Made by a program: the position numbers and the translations under genes
Shown: positions 475-61,998 of the stretch, piece after piece
Numbering within the stretch: the first letter of the stretch is position 1
How the letters are laid out: the number at the start of each line of letters is the position of its first letter
From: Rufibacter roseus
GTDB taxonomy: Bacteria; Bacteroidota; Bacteroidia; Cytophagales; Hymenobacteraceae
Length of the DNA stretch: 64,000 bases
Direction of reading: 5' to 3'
Assembly: GCF_001647285.1 (NCBI RefSeq)
Contig: NZ_LRML01000013.1
Span: 1-64,000, forward strand
The notes under the pieces: generated by a model
Seen by the model: the letters and a program-made list of their open reading frames with translations, nothing else
The model's database searches: none
Told to the model about the DNA's origin: nothing

Positions 475-515
475 CTTGTTTTGGGCTTGTTTTCGTAAAA
501 CAGCCCCAGAACAAG
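475..515. repeat. Dispersed ~40-bp palindrome, copy 1
   Basis: Imperfect palindrome with outer arms CTTGTTTTGGG and CCCCAGAACAAG around an inner TTGTTTT/AAAACA stem. It lies 17 bp beyond the stop codon of the minus-strand dehydrogenase gene. Confidence 0.8.
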
Positions 516-532
516 ATTTTTAGTTACTGCCT

Positions 533-1771
533 CTACAACAACTGGCTCAGCGCAATTTCAAAGGAAGTCTTGGCAATCTCTGTTTTCTGCGGATTGCGCT
601 CATAAGCTTTCTCCAAGGCTTGGCGGATGGTGCGGGAAATGTCAGAGAAAATGGCTTCGTCGGTTATTTCCACGTCTTGCTCCATAAGGTAGGCAAACAC
701 GCGGGCCATGCCACAGTTGGCCACAAAGTCCGGAATCACAGACACGTGCCGGTCAGCAAATTCACCGGTAGGGCCGAAGAATATCTCAGGGTCTTTAAAG
801 GGTACGTTGGCCCCGCAGGAAATAACTTCCAGGCCGCTGGCTTTCATGCGCTCTACCTGTTCTGTAGTTACTAATCTGGAAGCGGCGGCCGGTATAAAAA
901 TCTCAGCCTCTATACCCCAAATCTGGGTGTTCACTTCCTCAAACGAAAGCAAATTTTCAGCGGTGAGGGTGTTGCCGTGGCGGTTCAGGAACAGGTCTGT
1001 GATTTGGTCAAATGAGAACCCGTTGGTGTGGATAAGGCCACCGGCACGGTCAATGATGCCTACAATTTTCACTTCCTCGGCTGCCAGATAATAGGCTGCC
1101 GCCGCCCCCACATTTCCCCAGCCTTGAATAATGGCGCGCTTGCCTTTGAGCTGACCGCCCCAAATATCATAGTAGTGGCATACCGCTTTGGCCACGCCGT
1201 AACCGGTAATCATGTCGGCTACGGTGTATTTGCGGGCCAAGGAAGGCGAGTAGTTAATATCTTCCAGCACTTTGCTCACACCTTGGCGAAGCTGCCCCAG
1301 CTTGTTGATTTTCTGCGGCTCGGTGGCGTTGTAGTGGCCGTTCACAATGCCTTCCTGCGGGTGCCAGAGGCCGTATTCCTCGGTGATAGGAATTACTTCG
1401 TGAATCTCGTCTACGTTGAGGTCGCCGCCGGTACCGTAATAGTTTTTGAGCAGCGGGTACACCACGCGGTACCAACGTTCCAGCACGCCCTGTTTTCTGG
1501 GGTCAGAAGGGTCAAAGTTGATGCCTGACTTGGCTCCGCCGATGACTGGGCCAGAGACGGTAAACTTCACCTCCATGGTTTTGGCCAGAGATTCCACCTC
1601 GTTCTTGTCTAACCCAGCGCGCATGCGGGTTCCGCCGCCGGCTGCCCCGCCCCGCAATGAATTAATTACTACCCAACCTTCAGCCTCGGTTTCAGAATCT
1701 TTCCACTCAAAAACAATTTCTGGTCGCTTGTTCTCAAACTTGGTGAGTAGGTCTTTCATAGAGTTGGTCAC
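533..1771 (-). CDS. Glu/Leu/Phe/Val dehydrogenase family protein
   Basis: A 412-residue NAD(P)-dependent amino acid dehydrogenase of the Glu/Leu/Phe/Val family, which interconverts an amino acid and its 2-oxo acid plus ammonium in the cytoplasm. The substrate-binding domain shows GGAAGGGTRM (about 41-50) and the family lysine in GGAKSG (Lys81). The TGGDLNVDEI segment holds the conserved Asp region, and a Rossmann motif GWGNVG lies near residue 217. It is clearly diverged from the second enzyme at 16827-18122, which has the more typical glutamate dehydrogenase sequence, so its substrate is uncertain. A TACCTTTG promoter box lies about 20 bp upstream. An in-frame Met at position 5 is an alternative start. 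Confidence 0.9.
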   Translation of the reverse strand: MTNSMKDLLTKFENKRPEIVFEWKDSETEAEGWVVINSLRGGAAGGGTRMRAGLDKNEVESLAKTMEVKFTVSGPVIGGAKSGINFDPSDPRKQGVLERWYRVVYPLLKNYYGTGGDLNVDEIHEVIPITEEYGLWHPQEGIVNGHYNATEPQKINKLGQLRQGVSKVLEDINYSPSLARKYTVADMITGYGVAKAVCHYYDIWGGQLKGKRAIIQGWGNVGAAAAYYLAAEEVKIVGIIDRAGGLIHTNGFSFDQITDLFLNRHGNTLTAENLLSFEEVNTQIWGIEAEIFIPAAASRLVTTEQVERMKASGLEVISCGANVPFKDPEIFFGPTGEFADRHVSVIPDFVANCGMARVFAYLMEQDVEITDEAIFSDISRTIRQALEKAYERNPQKTEIAKTSFEIALSQLL

Positions 1772-1790
1772 GTTTTATTGGCTTATACGG

Positions 1791-1798
1791 CAAAGGTA
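1791..1798 (-). promoter_or_regulatory. Putative promoter -7 box (TACCTTTG)
   Basis: The minus strand reads TACCTTTG, matching the Bacteroidota TAnnTTTG consensus, 20 bp upstream of the dehydrogenase start at 1771. I could not identify a convincing -33 TTTG. Confidence 0.5.
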
Positions 1799-2000
1799 TA
1801 AAGAACTAGCGTTTGTTGAGGGTGTTCTCTTTTTCCGTAGAGACTAGGCACTGCCTTGTCTCCCACGCATTTTGGAAGAGAAGCAGAGGCAACTGTTTTT
1901 GGCGCCGACACTAGCAGGTCTGGGAGACAATGCTAAGTCTTTTGAGCAAGCATTTTACGGGGAAGCTAAGTGAAACTTCCTCTTCTGAAAGGTAGCAATT

Positions 2001-2040
2001 CTATTTTCGGCCTCCTTTTTGAAAAACGGGTCGAAAACAG
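2001..2040. repeat. Dispersed ~40-bp palindrome, copy 2
   Basis: CTATTTTCGG and TCGAAAACAG arms enclose CCTCCTTTTTGAAAAACGGG. It starts 7 bp after the anmK stop codon (anmK is on the minus strand). Confidence 0.85.
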
Positions 2041-2047
2041 CCATAGT

Positions 2048-3121
2048 TTACATCCAGTAAATGGCGCCGCCGCAATTATCATGCTTGGCACCGGTAACGC
2101 TTTTGAGACAGTTAGGTTCTTGCCGCCAGCGCAGCACACCCAGAAATGCGAAGATGAGGGCTTCTTTGAAATTTACCAGCTCCGGCTCAGGTACTACTAC
2201 CTCATATTCGGGGCCTAAGTAGTGTCTTATTTGCTCCACCAAAAAAGAATTAAACGCCCCACCACCCGTGAGCAAAAGCTTCCCGTTTTTTATGTTGGAG
2301 TGCTGCCGTACTGACTGCGCAATTTGGTAACCGATGTGGTGGCAGGAGGTGTGCAGTTTGTCTTGTACTGAGGCGGAAAATTCTTGGAGCGTGGTTAAAC
2401 TGTAGGCATCTGCCCACTCTTTTCCAATAGATTTTGGAAACGGAGCCGAGAAATAAGAAGGCTTGTTGAGCCGGTCGAACAGGTTTTGGTCAAATTTGCC
2501 TGACCGCGCCGCCTCGCCGTTTTTGTCATAGGGCATACCTAATTCTTCGGCCAGCGGGTTCAGCAGCATGTTGCAGCAGCTAATGTCAAAAGCGATTCTG
2601 GTATTGGGCCCTTCTTGCGAAATGTTGGAAATGCCGCCCAAGTTCAGGCAGAAATCGTATTCAGCGAACAGCAGCCGGTCGCCAATTGGGACCAACGGAG
2701 CGCCTTGACCGCCCAGGGCAATGTCAAGGGTGCGAAAGTCTGAGACAGTGGGTACGCCGGCCGCGGCCGCCAAATAAGCCCCGCTGCCTACCTGAAACGT
2801 AATGTGCAGCTGGGGCTGGTGAAAGATGGTATGCCCGTGAGAAGCCACAAAATCAACCTGCAGTTGGTGACGGTCAATGAAATTTTTTGTGAGTTCCCCT
2901 AAAAAGTGGCCATAGGCCCTGTCAGTGGCAATAATTTCAACAGCGCTTACTTCTGTCAGGCCCTGTAGGCGCTGCATCCATACATCTGAATATGGAACTG
3001 TTTCTGTATTAAGTATTTTATATATCCAATTGTGATTAATATACGTAAATCTGCAATAAGCCAAGTCAACTCCGTCTAACGAAGTGCCGGACATGATACC
3101 GATAACATGGTAAGTCGCCAT
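2048..3121 (-). CDS. anmK: Anhydro-N-acetylmuramic acid kinase
   Basis: A 357-residue AnmK. It phosphorylates and hydrolyses 1,6-anhydro-N-acetylmuramic acid to MurNAc-6-phosphate, a cytoplasmic step of peptidoglycan recycling. The N-terminus carries the family signature GIMSGTSLDGVDL (residues 8-20), a phosphate-binding loop of the actin-like ATPase fold. The segment GGQGAPLVPIGD and the C-terminal LLTGGGAFNSFLVE agree with AnmK. Length is normal for the family. Its upstream partner in recycling, a NagZ-type glucosaminidase, is encoded in the same window at 40085-43144, although not in the same operon. The gene is divergent from the ArsR regulator at 3228, with a 106-bp shared upstream region. 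Confidence 0.95.
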   Translation of the reverse strand: MATYHVIGIMSGTSLDGVDLAYCRFTYINHNWIYKILNTETVPYSDVWMQRLQGLTEVSAVEIIATDRAYGHFLGELTKNFIDRHQLQVDFVASHGHTIFHQPQLHITFQVGSGAYLAAAAGVPTVSDFRTLDIALGGQGAPLVPIGDRLLFAEYDFCLNLGGISNISQEGPNTRIAFDISCCNMLLNPLAEELGMPYDKNGEAARSGKFDQNLFDRLNKPSYFSAPFPKSIGKEWADAYSLTTLQEFSASVQDKLHTSCHHIGYQIAQSVRQHSNIKNGKLLLTGGGAFNSFLVEQIRHYLGPEYEVVVPEPELVNFKEALIFAFLGVLRWRQEPNCLKSVTGAKHDNCGGAIYWM

Positions 3122-3227
3122 GCGTTAAAGTAACATAATGTTCAGGTAGTAAGCAAAACGGATTGCCGGGCGGGTTTGAAGGGCGCGGTTGGCGCGTCTT
3201 ATTGTAGTATGATTTTAGTGTGTCCTT

Positions 3228-3536
3228 ATGAAAAGTTTATTATCCAGAGTGGAATCAAAGAAGATAGATAAGGCTGCGTCTATGCTGAAGGTGTTGGCGC
3301 ACCCAAAAAGGTTGGCCATCGTGGATCTCCTGGGTAAGGAAGATAAAATGACTGTGACGGAGATCTATAACTACTTAGATCTGCCCCAGGCCATTGCCTC
3401 ACAGCATTTGATCACGCTGAAAGACAAGGGCGTTCTCTCGTCTTTCAAGGTGGGCACCAAAATCTATTATTCCCTATCTATCCCTAAGCTGATTGATGTG
3501 ATCGACTGTCTGGAGGAATGTTGCGGAGATCTGTAA
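3228..3536 (+). CDS. ArsR-family winged-helix regulator
   Basis: A 102-residue transcription regulator of the ArsR/SmtB type. LKVLAHPKRLAIVDLL (about 21-36) is the typical dimer/first helix region, followed by the recognition helix around LPQAIASQHLITLKDKG (52-68) and a winged hairpin ending in TKIYYSL. The metal-binding ELCVCDL-type cysteine motif of ArsR is absent from the third helix. The only cysteines are a CLEECC cluster at the C-terminus (about 94-99), which might sense thiols or metal. No obvious target gene is adjacent: anmK diverges from it and the glycosidase gene converges. The effector is unknown. Confidence 0.88.
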   Translation: MKSLLSRVESKKIDKAASMLKVLAHPKRLAIVDLLGKEDKMTVTEIYNYLDLPQAIASQHLITLKDKGVLSSFKVGTKIYYSLSIPKLIDVIDCLEECCGDL

Positions 3537-3580
3537 CTATCCTGCTTGCCTGTTCCCCCATCAAGTAAGTATCCCCCGGA

Positions 3581-3622
3581 ACCGTTTCCAGCCTGTTTTC
3601 TGAAAAGTAGGCCAGAAACGGT
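3581..3622. repeat. Dispersed ~40-bp palindrome, copy 3, terminator-like
   Basis: ACCGTTTC and GAAACGGT arms enclose the GCCTGTTTTC/GAAAAGTAGGC core. A TTTTATTTTTT tract follows on the plus strand, so this copy could act as the intrinsic terminator of the ArsR gene, between convergent genes. Confidence 0.8.
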
Positions 3623-3635
3623 TTTATTTTTTGTT

Positions 3636-5197: not shown

Positions 5198-5224
5198 TTT
5201 AGGGCGTATTCCATACGCCCTAAA
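5198..5224. repeat. GGGCGTAT hairpin, copy B
   Basis: Perfect 12-bp arms TTTAGGGCGTAT and ATACGCCCTAAA around a TCC loop. It shares its core with copy A at 5101-5119. Confidence 0.75.
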
Positions 5225-5238
5225 CTACGGATCTGCAA

Positions 5239-5280
5239 TCCGTTTTCGGCTCCTTTTCCTGAAAACAAGCTGAAAACGGA
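5239..5280. repeat. Dispersed ~40-bp palindrome, copy 4
   Basis: TCCGTTTTC and GAAAACGGA arms; abuts the hemA terminator hairpin at 5280-5316. Confidence 0.85.
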
Positions 5281-7986: not shown

Positions 7987-8033
7987 CCGAGTCCCCGGCC
8001 CCTCTCTAACTGAGGGGAGAGTTGTGGGTTTGT

Positions 8034-8068
8034 GTTTTGAATCTGTTTTTCGAAAAACAGGGCAGAAA
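8034..8068. repeat. Dispersed ~40-bp palindrome, copy 5
   Basis: The inner stem CTGTTTTTCGAAAAACAG is perfect; outer arms are weak. It lies 47 bp after the histidine kinase stop codon. Confidence 0.7.
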
Positions 8069-8107
8069 TGCTTGGTTTTGAAATAAAGCAGTTGCTCTTT
8101 GCAGATT

Positions 8108-8455: not shown

Positions 8456-8715
8456 ATTAAATTTACCACCTGGCCACCGTGCGCTGTTCCATAGCTTCTG
8501 TGGCTACTACTAAATTGAACCTGCGTCTCGTGCTCCCGCTAAGCGCCTGCGTGCCCTTGGCACTGCGTTGCCCGCTCCCGCAGGATAGGCTAAGGAAGTG
8601 TGAAATTGTGAGGAATGAGGTGATAAGTAATTCTTGGTAAGGGAGACTCAAGCTCTGCGCATCACCTTTGGTTTTGAGCTAAGGTGCCGCTTTCTCTTCT
8701 ATGCATGTCAATTTG

Positions 8716-8753
8716 CATTTTTGGCCTGTTTTTCAAAAACTAGCCTTGAAACG
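8716..8753. repeat. Dispersed ~40-bp palindrome, copy 6
   Basis: TTTTTGGCCTGTTTTTC core; ends 1 bp from the stop codon of the minus-strand gene at 8755. Confidence 0.7.
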
Positions 8754-8754
8754 A

Positions 8755-9498: not shown

Positions 9499-9507
9499 AA
9501 GGTTTGT

Positions 9508-9543
9508 GTGCTAAACTTAGTTTCCTGAAAAGAGGCCAGGCAC
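9508..9543. repeat. Degenerate palindrome overlapping a stop codon
   Basis: The plus strand reads GTTTCCTGAAAAGAGGCC here, resembling half of the 40-bp palindrome, and it encodes the last residues (PGLFSGN) of the minus-strand gene at 9517. The arms pair poorly, so membership is doubtful. Confidence 0.35.
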
Positions 9544-10290
9544 GGTAAACCGGAAAAAATTTAATGTTTTATAGTAGAGGCCTACCGGAGAATACCATCT
9601 ATAGTGGATAGCACCCATCAATACAGTCTCACCAAGAAGGGCAGTGGAATCTGATGCAAGAGAAATTTCCAAGCTTTGGTCTGAAGTTAGTTGGCTTAAT
9701 TTTATCTCCTGGGTTTTATAGGCAATATAGGCTATAACAATAGTCTGTTCCTGTGCTTGTAGAGAGGCGGGGACTTCTAAAGAGAAGTTTCCTAATTCGT
9801 CAGTTGATGTCCCCAAAGCGGTTCCTTTTATAACTACTGACGCTCCAATAAGAGGAGAGTGATCTGTAGAATCTACTACCGTGCCCTTGATGATAAAAGG
9901 AGTGCCCGATGAAGGATTTTCTTCTGAAATAGTATTTGTCGTCTTTACAGCTTCAGCAGTACTTTCTTTAGACTTTGTTGATTGTGCTTCTGCTGCTGTG
10001 GTGCTTAACCATGTGGCAAAAGCCAAAGCAGCTGCCCGCCACGTCCAGTTACTTTGAGCGGGAGAAACAGCTTTTAATTCTTTCTCCAACTGGTCTCTCC
10101 TGAATCTTCCGCAGGTGCTGCCTTTTTGAACAGACATCCACTGCACTACTTCGGCATCTGTCATTCTGGTGAAATCCACCACTGTTTTAGCGCAGCTCTG
10201 GCAATGCCGTCCCTGCGCTTGGGGCGTCATCTCCTGCCATTTCTCCTGGCAGGGCTGGGGTATAGAAACGGTGATGCGGCGGCGGAACAT
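9517..10290 (-). CDS. Cys4-motif single-pass membrane protein, paralogue B
   Basis: A 257-residue paralogue of the protein at 8755-9498. Cysteines again fall at exactly 14, 30, 33 and 60 (CQEKW, CQSCAK, CGRFRRDQLEKEL). A hydrophobic stretch near 87-101 (AAALAFATWLSTTAAEAQ) follows. The region from about 132 to 170 matches a carboxypeptidase regulatory-like beta-sandwich (IKGTVVDST, PLIGASVVIKGT, DELGNFSLEVP), as seen at the N-termini of many Bacteroidota outer-membrane receptors. The C-terminus repeats the YRWYSPVGLYYK pattern of the paralogue. The predicted topology is Cys domain in the cytoplasm and beta-domain in the periplasm. It is the first gene of the likely two-gene operon. Confidence 0.75.
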   Translation of the reverse strand: MFRRRITVSIPQPCQEKWQEMTPQAQGRHCQSCAKTVVDFTRMTDAEVVQWMSVQKGSTCGRFRRDQLEKELKAVSPAQSNWTWRAAALAFATWLSTTAAEAQSTKSKESTAEAVKTTNTISEENPSSGTPFIIKGTVVDSTDHSPLIGASVVIKGTALGTSTDELGNFSLEVPASLQAQEQTIVIAYIAYKTQEIKLSQLTSDQSLEISLASDSTALLGETVLMGAIHYRWYSPVGLYYKTLNFFRFTVPGLFSGN

Positions 10291-13683: not shown

Positions 13684-13729
13684 AGTCTGTTTTCGGCCTG
13701 TTTTAAGAAAAACAAACCGAAAACAGACT
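13684..13729. repeat. Dispersed ~40-bp palindrome, copy 7 (near-perfect)
   Basis: AGTCTGTTTTCGG and CCGAAAACAGACT pair perfectly over 13 bp, with a looser inner stem. It lies 42 bp past the dusB stop codon. Confidence 0.9.
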
Positions 13730-14826: not shown

Positions 14827-15798
14827 ATGAAAGGTTTCATGCCACAGCGTCTGCACCCACTTATGTCTATTTTACTGTTGATTGCTTTTGTGGCGATGGG
14901 GATGCTGATAGGCATGTTTGCGGCTACCGTTGCATTGAAATTGGGTTTTGGCTATAGCTTAGATCAGGTGGCGCAAATCATGCAAACGCCCACGGATTTT
15001 CCGGAGGGGCGCAACGCGTTGCTGATATACCAAGGTATTACCCACTTGTTTGGCTTTACCTTAAGCGCTTTGGTGTTAACCAAAATTACTTCAAGATTCC
15101 CTGAAAATTTTCTTTCGCCCAGGCCGTCGGTGCCACTGGGTTTACTGCTGCTGAGTGGTCTGCTGATTGTTTTGATCATGCCTGCCAACTCCTGGCTTAT
15201 TGAATGGAACGCCAACTTTAAATTCCCTGATTTTTTAGAATGGTTTGAGAAGGGGGCTAAAGAAACGGAAGAGCGCCTGAAAGTGCTCACGCAATATCTT
15301 ACTCAATTTGACAGCGTGGGCGCCATGCTGTTTGGGATTCTGATTATAGCGGTTCTGCCTGCCATTGGCGAAGAGCTGGTTTTTAGAGGGGTGCTGCAGC
15401 AAGAGTTAATCCGGTGGAGCAAGAACCACCATGTAGGTATATGGGTAGCCGGATTTTTGTTTGGTGCCATTCACATGCAATTCTACGGTTTCTTCCCGCG
15501 TATGGCATTGGGTGTGGTTTTAGGCTATCTCTATTTTTGGTCAGGTAACATTTGGGTACCCATTCTGGGGCACTTTATGAACAATGGATTTACAGTGCTT
15601 ATGCTCTATTTGCAGCAACAAGGTGCCATTGAGATAGACGTGGAATCAACCGATGCTACCACCTGGCCTATCTCGCTGGCCTCGCTGTTGATTAGTGCGG
15701 CGGTTCTATATTTTTTAAGGAACACTTACCGGAGGCTTCCCTCCGTGCCAGAAGCAGGAAATCCTGTTTCTGATCCGTTTTTCCGAAATGAGCCCTAA
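14827..15798 (+). CDS. CPBP-family intramembrane metalloprotease
   Basis: A 323-residue multi-pass membrane protein of the CPBP (Abi/CAAX protease-like) family. The metal-binding motifs are GEELVFRGVLQQEL (EExxxR, about residue 179), FGAIHMQFYGFFPRM (His in the next helix) and LGHFMNNG (second His). About eight hydrophobic helices are present. Substrates are unknown; family members process prenylated peptides or act in stress and bacteriocin immunity. The last 12 codons overlap a copy of the 40-bp palindrome, so the C-terminal tail NPVSDPFFRNEP is encoded by repeat DNA. An in-frame Met at residue 5 is an alternative start. Confidence 0.92.
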   Translation: MKGFMPQRLHPLMSILLLIAFVAMGMLIGMFAATVALKLGFGYSLDQVAQIMQTPTDFPEGRNALLIYQGITHLFGFTLSALVLTKITSRFPENFLSPRPSVPLGLLLLSGLLIVLIMPANSWLIEWNANFKFPDFLEWFEKGAKETEERLKVLTQYLTQFDSVGAMLFGILIIAVLPAIGEELVFRGVLQQELIRWSKNHHVGIWVAGFLFGAIHMQFYGFFPRMALGVVLGYLYFWSGNIWVPILGHFMNNGFTVLMLYLQQQGAIEIDVESTDATTWPISLASLLISAAVLYFLRNTYRRLPSVPEAGNPVSDPFFRNEP

Positions 15799-15802
15799 AA
15801 CA
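15764..15802. repeat. Dispersed ~40-bp palindrome, copy 8, inside a coding end
   Basis: CTGTTTCTGATCCGTTTTTC pairs imperfectly with CGAAATGAGCCCTAAAACAC. It covers the last codons and the stop of the CPBP protease gene. Confidence 0.65.
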
Positions 15803-15812
15803 CTTTTTTAAA

Positions 15813-18963: not shown

Positions 18964-19001
18964 AAAAGAAGCTTCATCCGGTTTGGGTGAGGCTTCTTCT
19001 G
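18964..19001. terminator. Bidirectional terminator between psd and the GAF gene
   Basis: AGAAGCTTCATCC pairs with GGGTGAGGCTTCT (three mismatches) around a GTTT loop. It lies between convergent genes and has A- and T-rich flanks. Confidence 0.65.
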
Positions 19002-19037
19002 TTTTAGACCTGTTTTCAGGAAAACAGGCTCAAAACG
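18999..19037. repeat. Dispersed ~40-bp palindrome, copy 9
   Basis: CTGTTTTAGACCTGTTTTC pairs with GAAAACAGGCTCAAAACG. Located between convergent psd and the GAF-domain gene, 44 bp past the latter's stop codon. Confidence 0.85.
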
Positions 19038-19081
19038 TATTCTAAAGTCATGCTACTTGATACGCACTACTTGATGCTAAC

Positions 19082-19673: not shown

Positions 19674-19721
19674 TTTTAAGAAATAAGCCAAATAACTGTT
19701 CTAGTTGATTCAGGGCATACC

Positions 19722-19758
19722 GCTTTTAGGCATGTTTTTCTGAAAAGAGGCTCAAAAC
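19722..19758. repeat. Dispersed ~40-bp palindrome, copy 10
   Basis: GCTTTTAGGC and GGCTCAAAAC arms around GTTTTTCTGAAAAG; 45 bp past the ribD stop codon (minus strand). Confidence 0.75.
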
Positions 19759-19803
19759 ACATCTTCTTTAACTCTTTCTAAGTTAAGAGGGGTTGAGTGA
19801 GGC

Positions 19804-25903: not shown

Positions 25904-25953
25904 TTAGCTGTGAATTTGGCCTGTTTTCTTAAAAACAGCAAATTCACAGCTAA
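25904..25953. repeat. Dispersed palindrome, copy 11 (50 bp, unusual outer arms)
   Basis: TTAGCTGTGAATTT pairs perfectly with AAATTCACAGCTAA, around a CTGTTTTCTTAAAAACAG inner stem. The outer arm sequence differs from other copies but pairs fully. It lies 9 bp after the rfbB stop codon. Confidence 0.9.
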
Positions 25954-27897: not shown

Positions 27898-27941
27898 CTT
27901 CTATTTTCGGACTATTTTTGTAAAATGAAGTCAAAAACAAG
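27898..27941. repeat. Dispersed ~40-bp palindrome, copy 12
   Basis: CTTCTATTTTCGGACTATTTT pairs loosely with AAAATGAAGTCAAAAACAAG. Located between convergent rfbA and chrA, 1 bp from the chrA stop codon. Confidence 0.7.
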
Positions 27942-29118: not shown

Positions 29119-29136
29119 GGGCTAAAAGTAAGAGGA

Positions 29137-29173
29137 CGTTTTAGGCTAATTTTTAAAAATAAGCATAAAAACG
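29137..29173. repeat. Dispersed ~40-bp palindrome, copy 13
   Basis: CGTTTTAGGCT and AGCATAAAAACG arms around ATTTTTAAAAAT, between the chrA start (18 bp away) and the long palindrome that begins at 29173. Confidence 0.65.
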
Positions 29174-29363
29174 AAAGGAGCCTCAAGAGCTTATTTAAAT
29201 TTTAGGTTTGTAAGCGAAAGTAGTTAGAGTAAGGTTCTGACGAAGTGGTTTTTGAGCCTCGTAGCAGCGCTACGAAGGTGATAAAAGCACAAAGGCAGGT
29301 TCTTGCTATAACTACTTGCAGCGAAAAGCTAAAGTTTAAACAAGCTCTTAAAGAGCTCCTTTC
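29173..29363. repeat. 191-bp near-symmetric long palindrome
   Basis: GAAAGGAGC (29173-29181) pairs with GCTCCTTTC (29355-29363), AGAGCTTATTTAAATTTTAG (from 29186) with CTAAAGTTTAAACAAGCTCT (to 29348), AGTAGTTAGAG with CTATAACTACT, and the centre is CGTAGC-AGC-GCTACG (29260-29274). The midpoint of the whole (29268) agrees with the centre of the inner hairpin (29267). It has no coding potential. It could be a miniature transposable element or a structured RNA. Confidence 0.8.
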
Positions 29364-31377: not shown

Positions 31378-31392
31378 GTTTTTCAAATTTTA

Positions 31393-31430
31393 TGTTTTGG
31401 AATCGTTTTCAAGAAAAGAGACCGAAAACA
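31393..31430. repeat. Dispersed ~40-bp palindrome, copy 14
   Basis: TGTTTTGG and CCGAAAACA arms around CGTTTTCAAGAAAAG, just after the terminator at 31346-31377. Confidence 0.75.
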
Positions 31431-31597
31431 CAAAACTACACAGGCCAATATAGGGGCAAGAGCTTTATAAATTGTCTTGGAATAAATGTAATTAATGTCA
31501 GAGGTGTGCGACTAATATTGAACATTCCTTCCTCCCTGGCACACCAGCAATTGTAGCGAAGAGTATAGCAAATATTCCTTTCAAAGAACGCCCACAC

Positions 31598-34487: not shown

Positions 34488-34527
34488 CTGTTTTTGACCT
34501 GATTTTCTGAAAACTGGACAAAAACAG
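34488..34527. repeat. Dispersed ~40-bp palindrome, copy 15
   Basis: CTGTTTTTGACCTGATTTTC pairs with GAAAACTGGACAAAAACAG, 54 bp upstream of the second permease start. Confidence 0.85.
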
Positions 34528-36987: not shown

Positions 36988-37031
36988 AAAACAGCGTGGG
37001 CAGCCATTTTTGGCTGCCCACGCTGTTTTTT
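36988..37031 (+). terminator. Strong intrinsic terminator of the efflux operon
   Basis: CAGCGTGGGCAGCC and GGCTGCCCACGCTG form a perfect 14-bp stem followed by six T, 15 bp after the adaptor stop codon. Confidence 0.9.
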
Positions 37032-37063
37032 AGGCTGTTTTTCAGAAAACAGGCCAAAAACGC
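37022..37063. repeat. Dispersed ~40-bp palindrome, copy 16
   Basis: GCTGTTTTTTAGGCTGTTTT pairs with GAAAACAGGCCAAAAACGC. It shares the T tract of the preceding terminator. Confidence 0.85.
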
Positions 37064-38222: not shown

Positions 38223-38262
38223 CTGTTTTAGGCCTGTTTTTATAAAAATAAGCCGAAAATAG
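38223..38262. repeat. Dispersed ~40-bp palindrome, copy 17
   Basis: CTGTTTTAGGCCTGTTTTTA pairs with TAAAAATAAGCCGAAAATAG, 4 bp after the DUF3616 stop codon. Confidence 0.85.
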
Positions 38263-38850: not shown

Positions 38851-38893
38851 TGCGTTTTAAAGCTAGTTTCTGAAAAACAGCTCTAAAACAGCA
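38851..38893. repeat. Dispersed ~40-bp palindrome, copy 18
   Basis: TGCGTTTTAAAGCTAGTTTC pairs with GAAAAACAGCTCTAAAACAGCA, 18 bp after the L,D-transpeptidase stop codon. Confidence 0.85.
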
Positions 38894-39966: not shown

Positions 39967-40008
39967 TCTGTTTTCGGCCTCCTTTTCTGAAAAGAAGCCA
40001 AAAACAGA
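39967..40008. repeat. Dispersed ~40-bp palindrome, copy 19
   Basis: TCTGTTTTCGGCCTCCTTTTC pairs (one end base omitted) with GAAAAGAAGCCAAAAACAGA. It abuts the terminator at 40008-40044, between convergent genes. Confidence 0.85.
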
Positions 40009-43144: not shown

Positions 43145-43187
43145 AGCAATCAGTATATATGGAAAGGGTGGTACTACTTGTTTAGGT

Positions 43188-43223
43188 GTTTCAGGGGTGC
43201 TTTTTGAAAAACAGCCTGAAAAC
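43188..43223. repeat. Dispersed ~40-bp palindrome, copy 20
   Basis: GTTTCAGG and CCTGAAAAC arms around TGCTTTTTGAAAAACA, between the LD-carboxypeptidase 3' end and the NagZ-fusion start. Confidence 0.7.
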
Positions 43224-43247
43224 GGGTGTTATTTATGTTCACGTTTC

Positions 43248-45930: not shown

Positions 45931-45936
45931 AATTTA

Positions 45937-45970
45937 TTTTGAGCCTGTTTTTCAGAAATCAGGCCCAAAA
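45937..45970. repeat. Dispersed ~40-bp palindrome, copy 21
   Basis: TTTTGAGCCTGTTTTTC pairs with GAAATCAGGCCCAAAA, 6 bp after the PBP4 stop codon. Confidence 0.8.
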
Positions 45971-46069
45971 CAGAAATAACAGAGGCCGATGTTTTTGCAA
46001 TGCGCAGCAAGAACATAGGCCTTTTAAATTTGGCTTAAGTAGAGGGGCAGAATAACATAAAACCTATTT

Positions 46070-46232: not shown

Positions 46233-46284
46233 ATGTTCCTGTTTTCGGGTTGCTTTTTCAAAAACAGCCCGAAAGCAGGAACAT
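46233..46284. repeat. Dispersed palindrome, copy 22 (52 bp, near-perfect)
   Basis: ATGTTCCTGTTTTCGGG pairs with CCCGAAAGCAGGAACAT (one mismatch) around TTGCTTTTTCAAAAACAG. It lies 20 bp past the stop codon of the GH18 gene (minus strand). Confidence 0.9.
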
Positions 46285-49165: not shown

Positions 49166-50017
49166 ATGAATGAATTCAGAAAAGAAGCTGTTTTTGGCTC
49201 GTTTTTCAAAAATCAGCTTCTAAATAGTTTATTGTCTCTTGGGGTTTGCCTGGCGTTGTGGCAATGCGCTAAACCACCGCTTGCGCAGGAAAGCAAGCTG
49301 ACAGGGCCGCAGGTAATAGAGGCTGTAGCACCGCTTGCGCCAGCAGACCGAGACGCTTTTGTACTGGAGCAATTGTTGAAAGAAGGGAATGGTCCAGATT
49401 TTCTGCGCCACACCAAACGCGTTCCTCTCGTTGCCCTTGGTCCGGAAGGTGACACATTGCGAGGCTACTGTTACGCTATTTTAGATTATTTGGCGGTTGG
49501 GGGTGATAATAATTTTGTGCGGATGCCTCTGCAGCCGCAATCTGCTCAGGCTGTTGCTCAGGCCTGGAGCTGTACATTGCCTACCCGTAAGGTGGTAGAT
49601 GCCATTTATGCCGCCGCTGATCTAAAGCTGGAACCACGGCCACTGACCGAAAACCGTGACAGCGCCCTTACATTTCTGCAACACAACCAAATTATTCAGC
49701 AACAGCTAAAAGGAAAACATAAGGGAAAACTTATTGCAGGGCATAAAAAGGATGTTGTGCTCAGCCCGCGGTTACTAAATCCTGAAAACACTGATCGGGT
49801 GGCAATTTACGGTTGGCATAAAAAAGACGGTAAGCCTATTCAGCCGCTTTACTTGTGTCATCTGGCTTCGTACACAGACTACAGTCACGGTATAAGGCTG
49901 GTTTTAGACCGCTTTGAGGTGAATGGGCAAGTTTACACCATGCAGCAGCTTTTAGCAGACCCTATGTATAGCCGGTTAGTGTGCGACGAAGAAATTTGCG
50001 AGCCCGTGCGGTACTAA
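49166..50017 (+). CDS. Hypothetical lipoprotein-like secreted protein
   Basis: A 283-residue exported protein of unknown function. A hydrophobic stretch SLLSLGVCLALWQCAKPP suggests a loose lipobox (Cys34). The first 18 codons overlap a 40-bp palindrome, so the true start may be downstream, for instance the TTG at residue 23. The C-terminal half has VAIYGWHKKDGKPIQPLYL, HLASYTDYSHGIRLVLD and a CDEEICEP cysteine pair, a pattern I associate with conserved secreted proteins of unknown role that contain YxDYSHGxR. The gene is divergent from NlpC/P60, and its neighbours suggest an envelope function, but this is weak inference. Confidence 0.7.
   Translation: MNEFRKEAVFGSFFKNQLLNSLLSLGVCLALWQCAKPPLAQESKLTGPQVIEAVAPLAPADRDAFVLEQLLKEGNGPDFLRHTKRVPLVALGPEGDTLRGYCYAILDYLAVGGDNNFVRMPLQPQSAQAVAQAWSCTLPTRKVVDAIYAAADLKLEPRPLTENRDSALTFLQHNQIIQQQLKGKHKGKLIAGHKKDVVLSPRLLNPENTDRVAIYGWHKKDGKPIQPLYLCHLASYTDYSHGIRLVLDRFEVNGQVYTMQQLLADPMYSRLVCDEEICEPVRY
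49184..49220. repeat. Dispersed ~40-bp palindrome, copy 23, inside a coding start
   Basis: GAAGCTGTTTTTGGCTCG pairs with AAAAATCAGCTTC around TTTTTC. It overlaps the N-terminal codons of the protein starting at 49166. Confidence 0.75.
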
Positions 50018-50022: not shown

Positions 50023-50062
50023 CTGTTTTTGGTCTGTTTTCAGGAAAACGGGCCGGAAATAG
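50023..50062. repeat. Dispersed ~40-bp palindrome, copy 24
   Basis: CTGTTTTTGGTCTGTTTTC pairs with GAAAACGGGCCGGAAATAG, 5 bp after the stop codon at 50017 and just upstream of the GNAT gene promoter box. Confidence 0.8.
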
Positions 50063-53007: not shown

Positions 53008-53020
53008 AGAAGAAGAGCAG

Positions 53021-53059
53021 CATTTTCGGCCTGATTTTGAAAAAGTAGGTCTAAAATAG
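53021..53059. repeat. Dispersed ~40-bp palindrome, copy 25
   Basis: CATTTTCGGCCTGATTTTG pairs with AAAAAGTAGGTCTAAAATAG, 13 bp after the receptor stop codon. Confidence 0.75.
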
Positions 53060-56206: not shown

Positions 56207-56670
56207 GGGTTTGTGTTTTAGGCTAGATGACTTGCGCGTGGCCTTTAGCTTTGCAGCAAAAGGGTTAACGTCTACTATTAGTCTCTTCAAAGTTAAAAAT
56301 CTTACCATAAGTCTACGGGCTGTTTCGGTAAATTTCATGAAGGAGGGGTGGTAATGTATTTGAAAGAAAGAGTTTGCATCTGTTTTATGCCTGATTTCTG
56401 AAAAACAGGCTTAAAACAGAAGCAACATTAGTTTTCCCCTAAACATAATAAAGGCTTCTTATAGTGGTATCACCAATAATTGGAGTGGGTTTTAAGGGTT
56501 GGTATGGAGGTAGCTAAAAAATTGTAAAAAAAAATAGAAGTCTACGCAACCATTCAGGCTAATTCCCGATAGAATAGATTCCCCCTCTCTTGAGTAGTGG
56601 GCAGGATGGCGGGTTTTCAAAAGCCCGTGCCTGAAGAAACGATAATTATTAATTTTTAACTATTACAACT
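56207..56670. other. 464-bp region between divergent genes
   Basis: It includes the probable non-coding 5' extension of the M28 frame (56207-56338) and one 40-bp palindrome (56379-56420). A CCCCCTCTCTTGAGTAGTGGG stretch (about 56582-56601) is also present. No further gene is visible and I found no clear TAnnTTTG box. Confidence 0.55.
56379..56420. repeat. Dispersed ~40-bp palindrome, copy 26
   Basis: TCTGTTTTATGCCTGATTTC pairs with GAAAAACAGGCTTAAAACAGA. This copy lies between divergent genes, an exception to the usual 3' position. Confidence 0.85.
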
Positions 56671-57107: not shown

Positions 57108-58448
57108 TTATCTTCGGCCGCTTCGGTTACCGCCTGAAGACCGTCGGTCTCTGTTGCCGCCTCCGCCTTGGCTAGAGCCTTGAGCTTGGGCAGGCTGTCT
57201 GTTGCCTTGGCCGCCGCCGGTGCGGGGGCCACGTCTCTGGCTACCGCCGCTGTTGCCTCCGCCGGAGCGGACTTTGTCAGTGGCGCGGCCTCCGGCTATC
57301 GGTAATTTTTCCAGTTTGGCTTGAAACGGATGGTCCTTCTCCACCGGAATGGTTTGCTTGGTCAGGCGTTCAATATCGCGTAGGTAAGGCAGTTCGGTGT
57401 CATCACAGAAAGAAAGAGCTAATCCTTCGGCTCCGGCGCGGCCGGTACGGCCAATGCGGTGCACGTACGTTTCAGGCTCGTTGGGCAGGTCTACATTTAT
57501 TACGTGGGTAAGGTCATCTACGTCAATGCCACGGGCGGCAATGTCGGTAGCCACCAACGCCTGCAGCTCATTGTTCTTGAATTGAGTAAGCGCCTTTACG
57601 CGGGTGCTCTGAGCCTTGTCGCCGTGAATAGATTGAGCCGAAATGCCTGCTCTAGATAAATCTTTGGCTATGCGGTCGGCGCCGTGTTTAGTACGGGAGA
57701 AAACTAACGCTCTTGAAATGCCTCCCTCTTTCAACAAGTGTTTTAGCAAAGCGCGTTTCTCCATTTTGTCAACGAAGTACACTTTCTGCTCAATTTTTTC
57801 AGCGGTACTTGAAACTGGCGTTACCTCTACATACACTGGGTCACGAAGTATGCTGCTAGACAGTTTCTGTATTTCCTGAGGCATGGTAGCTGAAAACAAC
57901 AGGGTCTGGCGGTCTGTCGGTATCTTATCAATCACTTTGCGCACATCATGAATAAAGCCCATGTCCAGCATGCGGTCGGCCTCGTCCAAGATAAAGGTCT
58001 GAATGAATTTGAGCGAGAGCAGGCCTTGGTTCATTAAGTCCAACAAGCGTCCGGGCGTGGCTACCAAAATATCTACCCCTCGTTGTATCTTCTCTACCTG
58101 CGGCACCTGGCCCACACCTCCAAAAATGACGGTGTGCTTTAATTTGGTATGGCGGCCATAGGCTTCAATGCTTTCGCCAATTTGCAGGGCCAGTTCACGG
58201 GTTGGGGTTAAAATAAGAGCTCTGATGGCTTTGGCCGGCTGAGCCGGTCCAGCCTGGTGCAGCCGTTGAATTAGAGGCAAGCTGAAAGCGGCTGTTTTGC
58301 CGGTTCCGGTTTGGGCGCAGCCCAGCAAATCTTCGCCGTTCAATACGGGCGGAATAGCTTGTTCCTGAATAGGGGTTGGGTTGGTGTAACCTTCTTCTTG
58401 CAGTGCCTGCAGAATAGGTTCTATTAAATTAAGTTCTAAAAATGTCAT
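57108..58448 (-). CDS. rhlE: DEAD-box ATP-dependent RNA helicase
   Basis: A 446-residue RhlE-like RNA helicase that remodels RNA, for instance in ribosome assembly or cold adaptation. I start it at [16 protein letters not shown], because the 17-residue upstream extension has no homology pattern. Q motif [14 protein letters not shown], motif [12 protein letters not shown], motif II DEAD in [12 protein letters not shown], motif III SATMP, motif [12 protein letters not shown]. The C-terminal 60 residues are Gly/Arg-rich ([18 protein letters not shown]), an RNA-binding tail common in this group. The stop codon is followed by a terminator hairpin. Confidence 0.94.
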
Positions 58449-58547
58449 TTTGATTTGTAACGGCCGACGTGTTTTTGGCCAGAAATGAAATGAGGACAAT
58501 GGCGCCCTTGTCTATAAGACGCAAAGATAGGTAAAAAGATTCAGTCT

Positions 58548-58584
58548 GCGTTTTTAGCCTGTTTTGTTGAAACTAGCTAATAAT
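58548..58584. repeat. Dispersed ~40-bp palindrome, copy 27 (degenerate)
   Basis: GCGTTTTTAGCCTGTTTTG pairs poorly with GAAACTAGCTAATAA. Located between divergent rhlE and the gene at 58705. Confidence 0.55.
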
Positions 58585-58704
58585 CAGAATATAAGTACAA
58601 GCTGATCTGCTGAAAAGTAAACTTTCATCTCTAATTCCGTTTAATGAAAAGGAGCCGCTATTTAAGTAGCTGCTGTATAACTATGACAATAAGCAACCGA
58701 AACT

Positions 58705-59214: not shown

Positions 59215-59230
59215 AATTGCTCAATAATTT

Positions 59231-59282
59231 AAAAGCCTGTTTTAAGGTTGGTTTTAGAAAATCAGCCTTAAAACAGGCTTTT
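59231..59282 (+). repeat. Dispersed palindrome, copy 28, terminator-like (52 bp)
   Basis: AAAAGCCTGTTTTAAGG pairs perfectly with CCTTAAAACAGGCTTTT around TTGGTTTTAGAAAATCAG. The outer arms here are AAGG/CCTT instead of CGG/CCG, a compensated change. It lies 16 bp after the stop codon at 59214 and ends in T residues. Confidence 0.9.
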
Positions 59283-59300
59283 GCTTATGTTGGTGAGTTG

Positions 59301-59417
59301 TCAACTCTTTTTGCCAGAGCCGCTCTTGTTGCCACCACCATCTTGTTTGTTTACGGTAGCCCAAGCTCTTTTCTCGGCCTCTTCATGGCTTACGCCGCGC
59401 TTTTCAAAAAGATTTAA
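59301..59417 (-). pseudogene. Remnant of a small KRGVSxEEAEKRAWATVNK-type protein
   Basis: The minus strand encodes FEKRGVSHEEAEKRAWATVN followed by a KQDGGGNKSGSGKKS tail and a stop at 59301-59303. This matches the C-terminal half of small Bacteroidota/Proteobacteria proteins (often 60-80 residues, called plasmid stabilisation-like) as I remember them. A stop codon (59418-59420) lies five residues upstream and there is no start codon in the frame, so the N-terminal half is missing. I therefore call it a decayed gene. The plus-strand frame across this stretch is a shadow. Confidence 0.55.
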
Positions 59418-59442
59418 TTAAGGTATTAGAAATAGAATGGTG

Positions 59443-59482
59443 CAAAAAAGGAAGAACACTTATAGCGTCCCTCCTTTTTTAT
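59443..59482 (-). terminator. Probable terminator of the Thr-rich lipoprotein gene
   Basis: An imperfect hairpin with AAAAAAGGA and TCCTTTTTT ends, 20 bp past the stop codon at 59503. Confidence 0.5.
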
Positions 59483-59502
59483 AAATTAGGTGGTGTTATA
59501 TT

Positions 59503-59721
59503 TTAGCGAGTAGAGTCAGGCGGCAAAGTTGTGTTGGTAGTATCAGTGGTAGTGCCGGTGGTGTTATCCATTGTGCCAGTTGTACCAGTAGTACCATTTT
59601 CAGTGCTCATGTCAGTGGTAGTGGTGTCAGTGGTTGACTCAGTGGATCCAGAGCATGAGGTTAAGGCTGATGCAGCAATAAAAGCAGCAGCAGCAAAAAC
59701 ATTGAACATTGTCTTTTTCAT
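59503..59721 (-). CDS. Small Thr-rich lipoprotein
   Basis: A 72-residue predicted lipoprotein. I start it at MKKTMFNVFAAAAF, since the upstream 16 residues are lysine- and threonine-rich without a function and would displace the signal peptide. The lipid cysteine is in the lipobox ALTSC (about residue 23). The rest is low complexity, dominated by Thr with Asp, Ser, Asn and Gly (for example TTTDMSTENGTTGTTG), and probably an unstructured surface linker. No domain is recognisable. It may be an envelope lipoprotein of unknown role. Confidence 0.65.
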   Translation of the reverse strand: MKKTMFNVFAAAAFIAASALTSCSGSTESTTDTTTTDMSTENGTTGTTGTMDNTTGTTTDTTNTTLPPDSTR

Positions 59722-59891
59722 AGTTTTAACAGTTTTAGAAACTTTAATAAGTTTTCTTTTTAAGTTCATCTTTTACGACTAAGTTTTGAAAAGGTGCGCT
59801 ACCGTTCAATAATTTCTTAAGGAATAAATACTGATTTTTAACTTGCACTTTTTCTTCTGCGTACAGCTCAAGAATTAGTTTAATACTTACT

Positions 59892-60293
59892 ATGGCTACT
59901 GGGTCTGCCACTATACTTTTTGACGGGGTCTGTAATCTATGCAATGGCTTTGTGCAATTTGTCATAGAGCATGACCCGCATGGGTATTTTAAGTTTGCCG
60001 CGCTGCAGTCTGAGATAGGGCAGCAGACACTGCAGCAGCATAAAATGCCAACTCAGCAGTTCTCTTCCTTCCTGCTGCTGGAAAATGGCAAACTGTACAC
60101 CAGATCCTCAGCGGCACTACGGGTTTTTAGACGCCTTAGCGGTGCTTGGCCATTGCTGTATGGCTTTATGATACTGCCTGCTTTTTTACGTGATGCTGTG
60201 TATGATCTGGTGGCAAGGAACCGCTACCGCTGGTTTGGTCAGCAGGAAAGCTGTATGCTGCCCACGCCTGAACTGAAAGCTCGTTTTTTGTAA
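59892..60293 (+). CDS. DCC-family thiol-disulfide oxidoreductase (DUF393)
   Basis: A 133-residue protein of the DCC (DUF393) family. The Asp-x-x-Cys-x-x-Cys motif is FDGVCNLCNGF (Cys14, Cys17), in a thioredoxin-like fold. LYTRSSAALRVFRRL and RYRWFGQQESCMLP are also typical of the family. It is cytoplasmic, and the physiological partner is unknown. It stands alone, divergent from the Thr-rich lipoprotein gene. Confidence 0.9.
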   Translation: MATGSATILFDGVCNLCNGFVQFVIEHDPHGYFKFAALQSEIGQQTLQQHKMPTQQFSSFLLLENGKLYTRSSAALRVFRRLSGAWPLLYGFMILPAFLRDAVYDLVARNRYRWFGQQESCMLPTPELKARFL

Positions 60294-60392
60294 AGCTTTC
60301 TTCAAGGGTACATCCTTTTCATAGGCTGGTGTGAATTAGCTTTATTCTCTACTTGCCCTATAGATATTTATAAGTACAAAATGCGCACTCTG

Positions 60393-60432
60393 CTGTTTTA
60401 GGGCTTGTTTTAAGAAACTGAGCCTAAAACAG
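60393..60432. repeat. Dispersed ~40-bp palindrome, copy 29
   Basis: CTGTTTTAGGGCTTGTTTTA pairs with AAGAAACTGAGCCTAAAACAG (first base shared), 99 bp after the DUF393 stop codon. Confidence 0.8.
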
Positions 60433-60490
60433 GGGTTCCTTTTGCCGAAATACAGCCGTAAGTTTGTAAGTTTAACACAAACGATACTCT

Positions 60491-61866
60491 GTGAAGACAA
60501 TAGAAAATATATTGGCTGAGGCCAGCGGCCTGGCTTGGGGAATGCCTTTGTTGATTTTGCTGATGGGGGGTGGCCTGTTCCTGATGCTGTACTGCCGGTT
60601 TGCTCCCTTCCGGCATTTAGGCCATTCCATTGAAATATTAAGTGGGAAATACCATGACCCCACTGCTCCTGGGCAAATCAGTCCGTTTCAAGCCATGGCG
60701 GGGGCGTTGGCGTCTACCATAGGCATGGGCAACATTAGCGGCGTGGCCGTGGGTATTGCCATGGGCGGACCTGGCGTGCTGTTCTGGATGTGGGTGAGCG
60801 CTCTGGTGGGTATGGCTACCAAGTTTTTCACCTGTACCCTCTCCGTCATGTACCGTGGCCGCAATGAGCGCGGCGAGGTAGAAGGTGGGCCCATGTACAT
60901 GGTAACAGAAGGGCTCGGTCAGAAATGGAAACCGCTGTCTATTCTGTTGCCGCCGCCGGATTAATAGGTACTTTGCCGCTCTTCCAGTCTAACCAGCTGA
61001 CCCAGATTGTGCGCGATGTTATTTTGAGACCCAGTGGCATGGTGGGCGAAGATGCCTTTGTGGCTAACTTGATCATGGGACTAGGCTTAGCATTGCCGGT
61101 GGCGGTGATCATGTTTGGTGGTCTTAAACGAATTGCCAAGGTGGCTACCAAACTGGTGCCGCTAATGGTGGTACTATACACTGGTTCAGTGCTGTACATC
61201 ATCTTTTCCAATATAGGAGAGGTGCCGCACATGTTTGCTATGATCTTTGAAGATGCCTTTAGCGGAAATGCCGTGCTGGGCGGAGCCGTAATGCAGATCA
61301 TCATATTAGGTGCCCGCCGGGCCTCTTTCTCTAATGAAGCCGGAATTGGTACCGCCGCCATGATGCATGGTGAATCACAGACGAATGAGCCGGTGCGCGA
61401 GGGGCTGGTAGCCATGCTGGAGCCATTTATTGACACCATAGTAGTCTGCACCATGACCGGCTTGGCCATTCTTATAACAGGCGTGTGGCAATCTGGAGAT
61501 ACCAATGGGGTAAGCATGACCGCCGCCGCCTTTGGTGAAGCTATGCCAGCCGTTGGTAAATACCTGCTGGTGTTGTGCGTATTTATTTTCGCGTTTACCT
61601 CATTGTTCTCTTATTGCTACTATGGCTCAAAGTGCTTTACCTACCTCTTCGGGTTCAAGTACAGCCGCGTGTATGACTATTTCTATATTTCCACCGTGGT
61701 TATTGGCGCGGTTATCACTCTGACGGCTATCATTAACCTAATAGATACCGCCTTTGCCTTAATGGCCGTGCCCACCATGGCTTGTGCTCTGTTGCTTTCA
61801 CCTAAAGTTATGGCCGCCGCTCGAGATTATTTTGGCAGAATGAAAGCGGTGAACAGTAAACAGTGA
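60491..61866 (+). pseudogene. Alanine/glycine:sodium symporter (AGCS) gene with a -1 frameshift
   Basis: The AGCS-family transporter is split into two frames. The first (60491-60964, GTG start) holds QAMAGALASTIGMGNISGVA and GGPMYMVTEGLGQKW, then ends out of frame as PLSILLPPPD. The second (60925-61866) resumes with AAAGLIGTLPLFQSNQLTQI and continues to the C-terminus with LGARRASFSNEAGIGTAAMM. Joining at 60947-60949 by one extra T (CTGTTGCC to CTGTTTGCC) would restore SILFAAAGLIGTL. This may be an assembly error or a genuine mutation. If real, the symporter is not functional. The stop codon overlaps a 21-bp tandem repeat. Confidence 0.9.
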
Positions 61867-61933
61867 TCAGTAAACAGTAAACAATGATCAGTAAACAGTA
61901 AACAATGATCAGTAAACAGTAAATAGTGATCAG
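61852..61933. repeat. 21-bp tandem repeat overlapping a stop codon
   Basis: Three units of GATCAGTAAACAGTAAACAA-type sequence (61865-61885, 61886-61906, 61907-61927), preceded by a partial unit that covers the symporter stop codon. A reversed word GTTTAC lies near 62070. Confidence 0.85.
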
Positions 61934-61962
61934 TAGCTAGAAAAACTACCAGTTAAACGAGT

Positions 61963-61998
61963 GTTTTGGATCTGATTTCTTGAAAATAGCCTTAAAAC
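61963..61998. repeat. Dispersed ~40-bp palindrome, copy 30
   Basis: GTTTTGGATCTGATTTCTTG pairs with GAAAATAGCCTTAAAAC, between convergent symporter and carB genes. Confidence 0.7.

Follow-up and report, generated by a model that had tools for sequence, protein, structure and literature searches.

The window analysed here, i.e. the whole stretch of 64,000 nucleotides from Rufibacter roseus (positions 1 to 64,000 of contig NZ_LRML01000013.1, RefSeq assembly GCF_001647285.1), carries 30 copies of a palindromic element of 40 bp, most of them behind the stop codons of genes. A preliminary description of the window had counted about 31 such copies, with a core GGCCTGTTTT and outer CTGTTTT arms, and had interpreted them either as a functional RNA hairpin of 3' untranslated regions (3'-UTRs) or as mobile elements resembling repetitive extragenic palindromes (REPs). 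The core, the arms and the association with gene 3' ends stand, and we add the layout of four boxes at 11-bp spacing around a 4-bp centre; neither the RNA hairpin nor the REP-like mobile element finds support in the analysis. With confidence that falls somewhat short of even, we suggest that the 40-bp unit is a recognition site in double-stranded DNA, neither an RNA structure nor a mobile element, and that it could act as a roadblock.

Copies of the element and architecture of the dyad

Copies were located by means of a profile of the half-site, derived from one genome and applied at a score threshold of 16. The scan of the window returned 30 copies, which match 30 of the 31 coordinates given before; the 31st (9508) is a degenerate remnant at 9506–9545 with a score of 9.5. 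No family of Rfam 15 matches the window above its gathering score. Fifteen copies were assigned to co-directional gaps, ten to convergent and two to divergent gaps, two overlap a predicted gene and one precedes the first gene. The earlier tally of about 27 copies behind stop codons and three in 5' or divergent positions is reproduced if the copies at 15764 and 476 are included.

The convergent gaps (coordinates without strand, profile scores in parentheses) harbor the copies 3582–3621 (40.6; gap occupied in 7 of 8 congeners), 18999–19038 (49.4; 11 of 12 congeners), 27901–27940 (36.3), 39968–40007 (45.5; 11 of 11 congeners), 53020–53059 (38.2) and 61961–62000 (40.8), as well as two pairs: 8032–8071 (36.4), 45 bp behind a stop codon, shares a long gap with 8715–8754 (36.8), and 45934–45973 (46.1), 3 bp behind the left stop codon, shares a gap with 46239–46278 (43.3), 26 bp from the right one. 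Co-directional gaps contain the copies 2001–2040 (40.4), 5240–5279 (40.5), 13687–13726 (50.5), 19721–19760 (36.2; gap occupied in 12 of 12 congeners), 29136–29174 (26.9; 3-bp centre), 31392–31431 (34.8), 34488–34527 (44.2), 37024–37063 (40.6), 38223–38262 (48.9; 4 bp behind a stop codon), 38852–38891 (42.8), 43186–43225 (39.7), 50023–50062 (42.7; 5 bp behind a stop codon) and 60393–60432 (36.2). The copy 476–514 (39.8; 3-bp centre) lies 18 bp behind the stop codon of the minus-strand gene 533–1759, 15764–15803 (38.3) overlaps the stop codon of gene 14827–15798, and 49188–49227 (35.0) overlaps the predicted 5' end of gene 49166–50017, in a divergent position. The two divergent gaps hold 56380–56419 (48.6) and 58548–58587 (30.0; gap occupied in 11 of 11 congeners).

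Around two copies the palindrome extends further, with outer arms that match perfectly: the divergent copy 25910–25949 (16.2) is enclosed in 25904–25953, whose 15-bp outer arms depart from the family consensus, and 59237–59276 (44.1) in 59231–59282, which starts with A's and ends with T's. In the gaps orthologous to 25904–25953, inspection by eye reveals compensating changes between species, as if these copies had been co-opted as terminator hairpins.

The unit is a dyad of four 7-mers, CTGTTTT-4-CTGTTTT-4-AAAACAG-4-AAAACAG, in which the two boxes of each half are 11 bp (one helical turn) apart and the dyad centre measures 4 bp (140 of the 148 copies in 464 kb of the R. roseus genome, G000). 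Self-complementary dinucleotides are avoided in the middle of the centre, and its commonest versions include a CA or TG step, which may point to kinking of the site by a bound protein. Each half-site holds 20–25 bits of information, while by our arithmetic, with the extrapolated copy number given below, about 12 bits would be enough to place some 1,600 sites in the genome; such over-specification would be expected if several subunits bind or if binding is very tight. The halves are nearly always paired: half-sites scoring at least 16 number 245, 416, 214 and 209 inside elements of G000 and the congeners G001, G012 and G005, respectively, vs 6, 23, 0 and 2 lone ones elsewhere. Non-neighbouring columns are largely unlinked within genomes, so that the copies do not represent a handful of cloned master sequences.

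Distribution in the genus and placement relative to genes

An exact two-box pattern occurs 488 times in the 5.12-Mb R. roseus genome, vs 4 times for the reversed pattern, and the profile detects 148 copies in 464 kb of it (positions 1–400,000 of contig C1, and the window), vs none in reversed sequence, which extrapolates to a total of about 1,600 copies. The exact pattern is found 26–2150 times in each of 15 congeners, 0–7 times in 21 genomes of the family's other genera and 0–11 times in 22 genomes of the order's other families. A search of whole and related genomes with a model built from the copies, which the preliminary description had suggested, shows the element to be genus-wide and nearly absent outside: a model based on 49 copies from several dialects (49 of 60 drawn sequences aligned) gives at least 146 matches per genome in 16 of 16 Rufibacter, no match (E <= 0.01) in 23 of 28 other genomes and 1–3 matches in 5 of the 28. 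The half-site profile has no match in 391 kb of Pontibacter or in the other non-Rufibacter loci scanned (79 of 80 loci, with L098 omitted). A candidate counterpart in Pontibacter was rejected, as the profile seeded on it ended up with palindromes of the terminator type and with a single recurring stretch common to several loci. Carriage by phages was looked for with one exact pattern in IMG/VR (0 matches), and the titles and abstract openings returned by searches of the open-licence literature describe no such element in Rufibacter.

The density of copies is 3.5–6.3 per 10 kb in 14 sampled congeners and 3.2 in the larger sample of G000. G001 stands out by 2150 exact matches, vs 26–647 in the other congeners and 488 in R. 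roseus, at a similar profile density; its copies may be unusually close to the consensus. The strongest matches outside the genus (3 matches to the model, best E 1.4e-6) are those of G022, from another genus of the family, and possibly represent transferred DNA.

Positional tests were carried out with 464,000 bases of G000, 448,879 of G001, 260,000 each of G012 and G005, and 20–60 kb of most congeners; G010 was included in the whole-genome searches. Among 526 classified copies from 15 genomes, 285 lie in co-directional, 157 in convergent and 75 in divergent gaps and 9 in genes, vs 53, 19, 22 and 432, respectively, expected by bases; equal frequency in coding sequence, which the preliminary description had named as contrary to its reading, is not observed. 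In an enlarged set of 927 copies, 582 overlap a predicted stop codon or start at most 100 bp behind it, vs 28% by random placement of 40 bp in gaps of at least 45 bp. Of 244 convergent gaps with a length of 45 bp or more, 202 carry the element, and for gaps of 45–120 bp the counts are 44 of 56 convergent vs 0 of 40 divergent. In gaps of at least 100 bp, the density within 100 bp of stop codons is 6.1–7.4 per kb (convergent) or 3.4–6.7 per kb (co-directional), vs about 1–2 per kb farther away; counted back from start codons, the density amounts to 0.6 per kb up to 20 bp and to 1.3–4.2 per kb at 20–500 bp.

Exactly two copies are present in 19 of 36 convergent gaps of 500–1200 bp; among 29 listed gaps of 450–1500 bp from four genomes, both stop codons have a copy within 100 bp in 13 gaps (e.g. 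at distances of 9 and 7, 2 and 2, or 36 and 5 bp) and 3 are empty, and 10 of the 13 two-copy gaps among these 29 belong to those with a copy near each stop. The number of copies per convergent gap is under-dispersed (variance/mean 0.2–0.6) and neighbouring gaps are independent, which indicates saturation per gap and not per kilobase. Even spacing along the chromosome was not found (coefficient of variation 1.00 vs 0.95 +/- 0.03 for the null), while spacings below 500 bp are rarer than in the null (0.153 vs 0.196). Two stretches of G000 contig C1, 23311–45737 and 47025–72524 (22 and 25 kb), are free of the element; they are largely co-directional, comprise 9 and 11 gaps with a length of 45 bp or more, and contain SusC/SusD-type and glycoside hydrolase 92 genes.

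Maintenance in place, mobility and dialects

Comparisons of shared placement were made between species. Among pairs of orthologous gaps (both at least 45 bp), both members are occupied in 1096, one in 290 and neither in 841; double occupancy is far above the 691 expected (phi 0.74). Single copies are found at equal distance from the stop codon (within 10 bp) in 394 of 626 pairs, vs 113 at random. A profile trained on one genome inflates the identity among detected copies, hence the fair comparison for the arm identity of 70.5% between co-located orthologues is the between-species baseline of 64.0% (0.64) for unrelated copies; the flanks are 42.6% identical. Position and consensus are conserved, the spelling of single copies far less so. 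Among 52 'absent' gaps of matching length, 87% retain a degenerate copy near the expected place, vs 0% in the control. Gaps with a copy are rarely 30–50 bp longer than their counterparts without one (11% of 38, 0% of 139 and 14% of 29 discordant pairs). Some copies of the window are unshared, e.g. only 1 of 14 congeners has a copy in the gap at 43186.

These data bear on the possibility that the element is a REP or a miniature inverted-repeat transposable element (MITE) spread by transposition, either by a REP-associated tyrosine transposase (RAYT) or by another enzyme. A small interspersed intergenic palindrome, confined to one genus and located at gene 3' ends, would suit such a family, and REPs are described as short multicopy palindromes in intergenic regions, mostly between convergent or co-directional genes (parts of PMC3733652). 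The Rufibacter element is similar to REPs of the GTAG/CGTC super-families in size, number and preference for these gaps, but it differs in having neither end tag, nor link to a transposase, nor sense-strand GT excess, and in its genus-wide positions and dialects. Specifically, no flanking consensus of the GTAG/CGTC kind is seen in 121 oriented copies. The search for a RAYT/TnpA_REP gene recommended in the preliminary description gave matches to Y1 transposases in 15 of 16 Rufibacter, but also in 28 of 33 element-free relatives, and the element-bearing G007 has none at E <= 0.001. Eight of 45 Y1 loci were scanned (16 copies in 26.2 kb); copies are present at 7 of the 8 and on both sides within 350 bp at 2 of the 8, while 80 of 437 ordinary genes of comparable size are likewise flanked on both sides, within 300 bp. 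Flanking of Y1 genes is therefore no commoner than that of ordinary genes, and no link to RAYT emerges. Together with the shared positions and the decay in place without insertion-sized (40-bp) length change, this led us to reject mobilization by RAYT, and spread by transposition in general appears highly improbable.

One Y1 locus, L028, carries a different palindrome, of the GGATTTGCAATCC type, at 1036–1164, about 340 bp from the congener's match to the Y1 transposase. In the window, a CGGATCTGCAATCCG word at 5224–5242 abuts the 5240 copy. The GGATTTGCAATCC/CGGATCTGCAATCCG words are perhaps the true RAYT-linked repeat of the genus.

Species-specific spellings of the element occur at shared positions and are clearest in three lineages. 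The consensus half-sites are cTGTTTTnGGcCTGTTTT in G000, CCGTTTTcGGgCTCATTT in G012, gCGTTTAGGGGCTgTTTT in G005 and cCGTTTTTGGCCTgtTTT in G007, several dialect profiles being based on 9–36 copies; the dialect of G013 is like that of G007, and the other species differ less (pairwise distances 0.06–0.26 overall). At shared positions, column 13 is C in 18 of 20 half-sites of G012 vs 7 of 56 in its partners, column 7 is T in 31 of 32 half-sites of G007 vs 21 of 96, and column 6 is T in 2 of 30 half-sites of G005 vs 73 of 112. The distance between dialects increases with protein divergence (Spearman 0.50 for 104 species pairs, which are not independent).

Dialects are also known for the DNA uptake sequences (DUS) of Neisseriaceae, which are present in many copies, with dialects congruent with phylogeny and with inverted pairs near terminators, and which are common also within genes (parts of PMC3630211). 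The Rufibacter element resembles DUS as a multicopy word with species dialects. Perhaps DNA bearing the word is favoured in uptake, so that copies accumulate wherever they are tolerated and drift into dialects? The copy number, the dialects that partly track phylogeny, the shared positions and the intergenic bias recall the Neisseriaceae sequences, but the Rufibacter unit is a complete 40-bp dyad with almost no copies in genes (9 of 526), lone halves are rare, and the copy number saturates per gap instead of per kilobase. A signal of this type is thus very unlikely.

Terminators and a possible function at the level of DNA

Rho-independent terminators are likewise palindromes behind stop codons, sometimes common to converging genes. 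The Rufibacter element differs from them in that it is a sequence-specific word with symmetric mismatches and without a U-tract consensus. In 285 co-directional copies we counted 357 GT and 355 AC mismatches on the sense strand, vs 19 GT and 1 AC in 31 control intrinsic terminators from 71 non-Rufibacter loci. GT pairing serves as evidence for RNA function in REPs (parts of PMC3733652); with GT about equal to AC in the elements and a ratio of 19:1 in terminators, the reading as an RNA hairpin is unsupported. The sense-oriented profile of 121 copies is nearly mirror-symmetric, no U-tract consensus follows the element in this set, and the asymmetry of half-site scores is 0.68 +/- 0.43. At co-directional ends with a scored terminator, the element comes after it at 54, before it at 17 and overlaps it at 35; at convergent ends the corresponding numbers are 41, 33 and 33. 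If the copies were nevertheless RNA hairpins of 3'-UTRs, they could work as terminators, as stabilizers of 3' ends or as sources of small RNAs. Their location behind stop codons and the extended palindromes at 25904 and 59231 are in keeping with this, and since scored terminators overlap the element at 35 of 320 element-bearing convergent ends and at the above 35 co-directional ends, some copies are part of terminators. However, the mismatch test, the lack of a U-tract consensus and the position of the element more often beyond the terminator at co-directional ends make the RNA hairpin unlikely as an explanation of the family.

The element has no strand sense, prefers gene ends, is maintained in place, varies in dialects and is nearly always complete in both halves. 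Such a combination would suit a site bound as DNA. The four boxes would accommodate a putative sequence-specific, probably DNA-bending protein, either as a tetramer or as two dimers; selection on the match to this protein would keep each site in place, and when the preference of the protein drifts in a lineage, the sites would follow by point changes, which could give rise to the dialects. The most likely function would be that of a tight two-way roadblock, which halts or insulates RNA polymerase where transcription units end, beside the intrinsic terminators. The wider proposal of a genus-wide gene-end system, in which a putative multimeric protein on 40-bp dyads at most transcription-unit ends blocks RNA polymerase (or supercoils) in both directions and has co-evolved with more than 1000 sites through several dialects, is one we put forward as possible, on balance doubtful.

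Termination by roadblock, in which DNA-bound proteins stop RNA polymerase, has been described for Reb1 and Rap1 in yeast and for LacI, CcpA, CodY, Fis and Tus in bacteria, with a role that is piecemeal in bacteria and wider in yeast, and it has been suggested that roadblock proteins help to delimit transcription units (parts of PMC10310618). The placement of the Rufibacter sites at gene ends fits such a function, and the element would resemble these cases in its manner of working. The bacterial cases named in the parts of PMC10310618 considered are individual regulators or known proteins, with no genome-wide gene-end site among them. If the reading as a DNA site is true, one genus marks many of its transcription-unit ends with a protein-bound site, and the separation of neighbouring transcription units without RNA hairpins becomes a testable question. 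The species with dialects then constitute a natural experiment, with shared sites shifted jointly in at least three lineages, from whose genomes changes in the specificity of the binder could be read.

A number of observations weigh against the DNA-site interpretation. Concerning terminators, T is slightly more frequent directly behind those co-directional copies that are close to stop codons (0.38 in the first 10 bp vs 0.30 in the next 10), as an RNA hairpin would have it; at convergent ends the order is about even (the numbers 41, 33 and 33 given above); and terminators start nearer to the stop codon than elements (medians 27 vs 39 bp), which explains part of the terminator-then-element order. 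Of the convergent ends, 84 of 320 with an element and 46 of 168 lacking one have a scored terminator (P = 0.83); at most, the element therefore supplements the terminators. The idea that it replaces terminators, raised by a first scan (14 of 93 with element vs 13 of 21 without), was given up, as the difference vanished with a better scanner, more sequence and counts per end; per convergent gap, the more sensitive scanner gives 60 of 148 with element vs 21 of 37 without (P = 0.095), and terminators at convergent ends elsewhere amount to 21 of 40 in Pontibacter and 17 of 74 in other Cytophagales. Concerning placement, 345 of the 927 copies lie away from the 100 bp behind a predicted stop codon, the 75 divergent copies of the 526 have to be accounted for, and the density on the side of start codons (20–500 bp) reaches 2.2–4.2 per kb in co-directional and 1.3–2.5 per kb in divergent gaps, all of which is unlike the prediction for a pure terminator. 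A simple promoter motif is not enriched in element-bearing co-directional gaps (for gaps of 100–160 bp, 6 of 58 with element vs 34 of 112 without), and the length of the co-directional run has no effect on occupancy. G001 has the 23 lone half-sites listed above, three out of four genomes show covariation of columns 7/32, and no binder was detected among the families checked: GyrA/ParC (PF00521), resolvase (PF00239) and HU/IHF (PF00216) do not distinguish the genus. Finally, gene prediction relied on a home-made caller, which overlooks small genes, and related genomes do not provide independent counts.

The covariation deserves a separate comment, since a plain dimer site needs none. Columns 7/32 covary in G000, G001 and G012; for columns 10/29 the signal is strong in G000 and weak in G001, and in the 49 copies of mixed dialects both the paired fraction and the covariation score exceed those of all 500 shuffles. 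This is the main hint that the element could be a DNA cruciform or a single-strand hairpin, recognized as a structure, or that its arms are subject to arm-templated repair. The nearly obligate presence of both arms and the equal GT and AC counts would fit the folding of either DNA strand. On the other hand, most paired columns are little linked within a genome, the arms (18 pairs) are merely 73–77% complementary in the four large samples, G005 exhibits no covariation at columns 7 or 10, and arm-templated repair could also symmetrize neutral columns. Recognition as a structure is quite unlikely on these grounds.

The copies, with their A/T tracts spaced by helical turns, might also be strong sites for a type II topoisomerase (gyrase), placed downstream of genes, where an advancing RNA polymerase accumulates positive supercoils in front of it, a function at the DNA level yet not that of a terminator. 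REPs of E. coli are bound by gyrase, an enzyme whose cuts are staggered by 4 bp. The 4-bp centre of the dyad with its non-self-complementary middle dinucleotide and common CA/TG step, the 11-bp spacing and the placement strongest between converging genes are all consistent with this. However, the GyrA/ParC genes are unduplicated (2 in each of 29 genomes) while the word is confined to the genus and changes in dialects, and the gyrase motif of E. coli is unlike the Rufibacter word. We consider gyrase unlikely, albeit the strongest of the rivals to the recognition site of a dedicated putative protein.

One copy of the window shows additional features. The divergent-gap copy at 58548 lies upstream of gene 57108–58448, which we take to be a DEAD-box helicase by its sequence, at 99–105 bp from its start in 12 species, and in most of these it is accompanied by a ttcagtct-like flank. 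This suggests a separate constraint on this copy.

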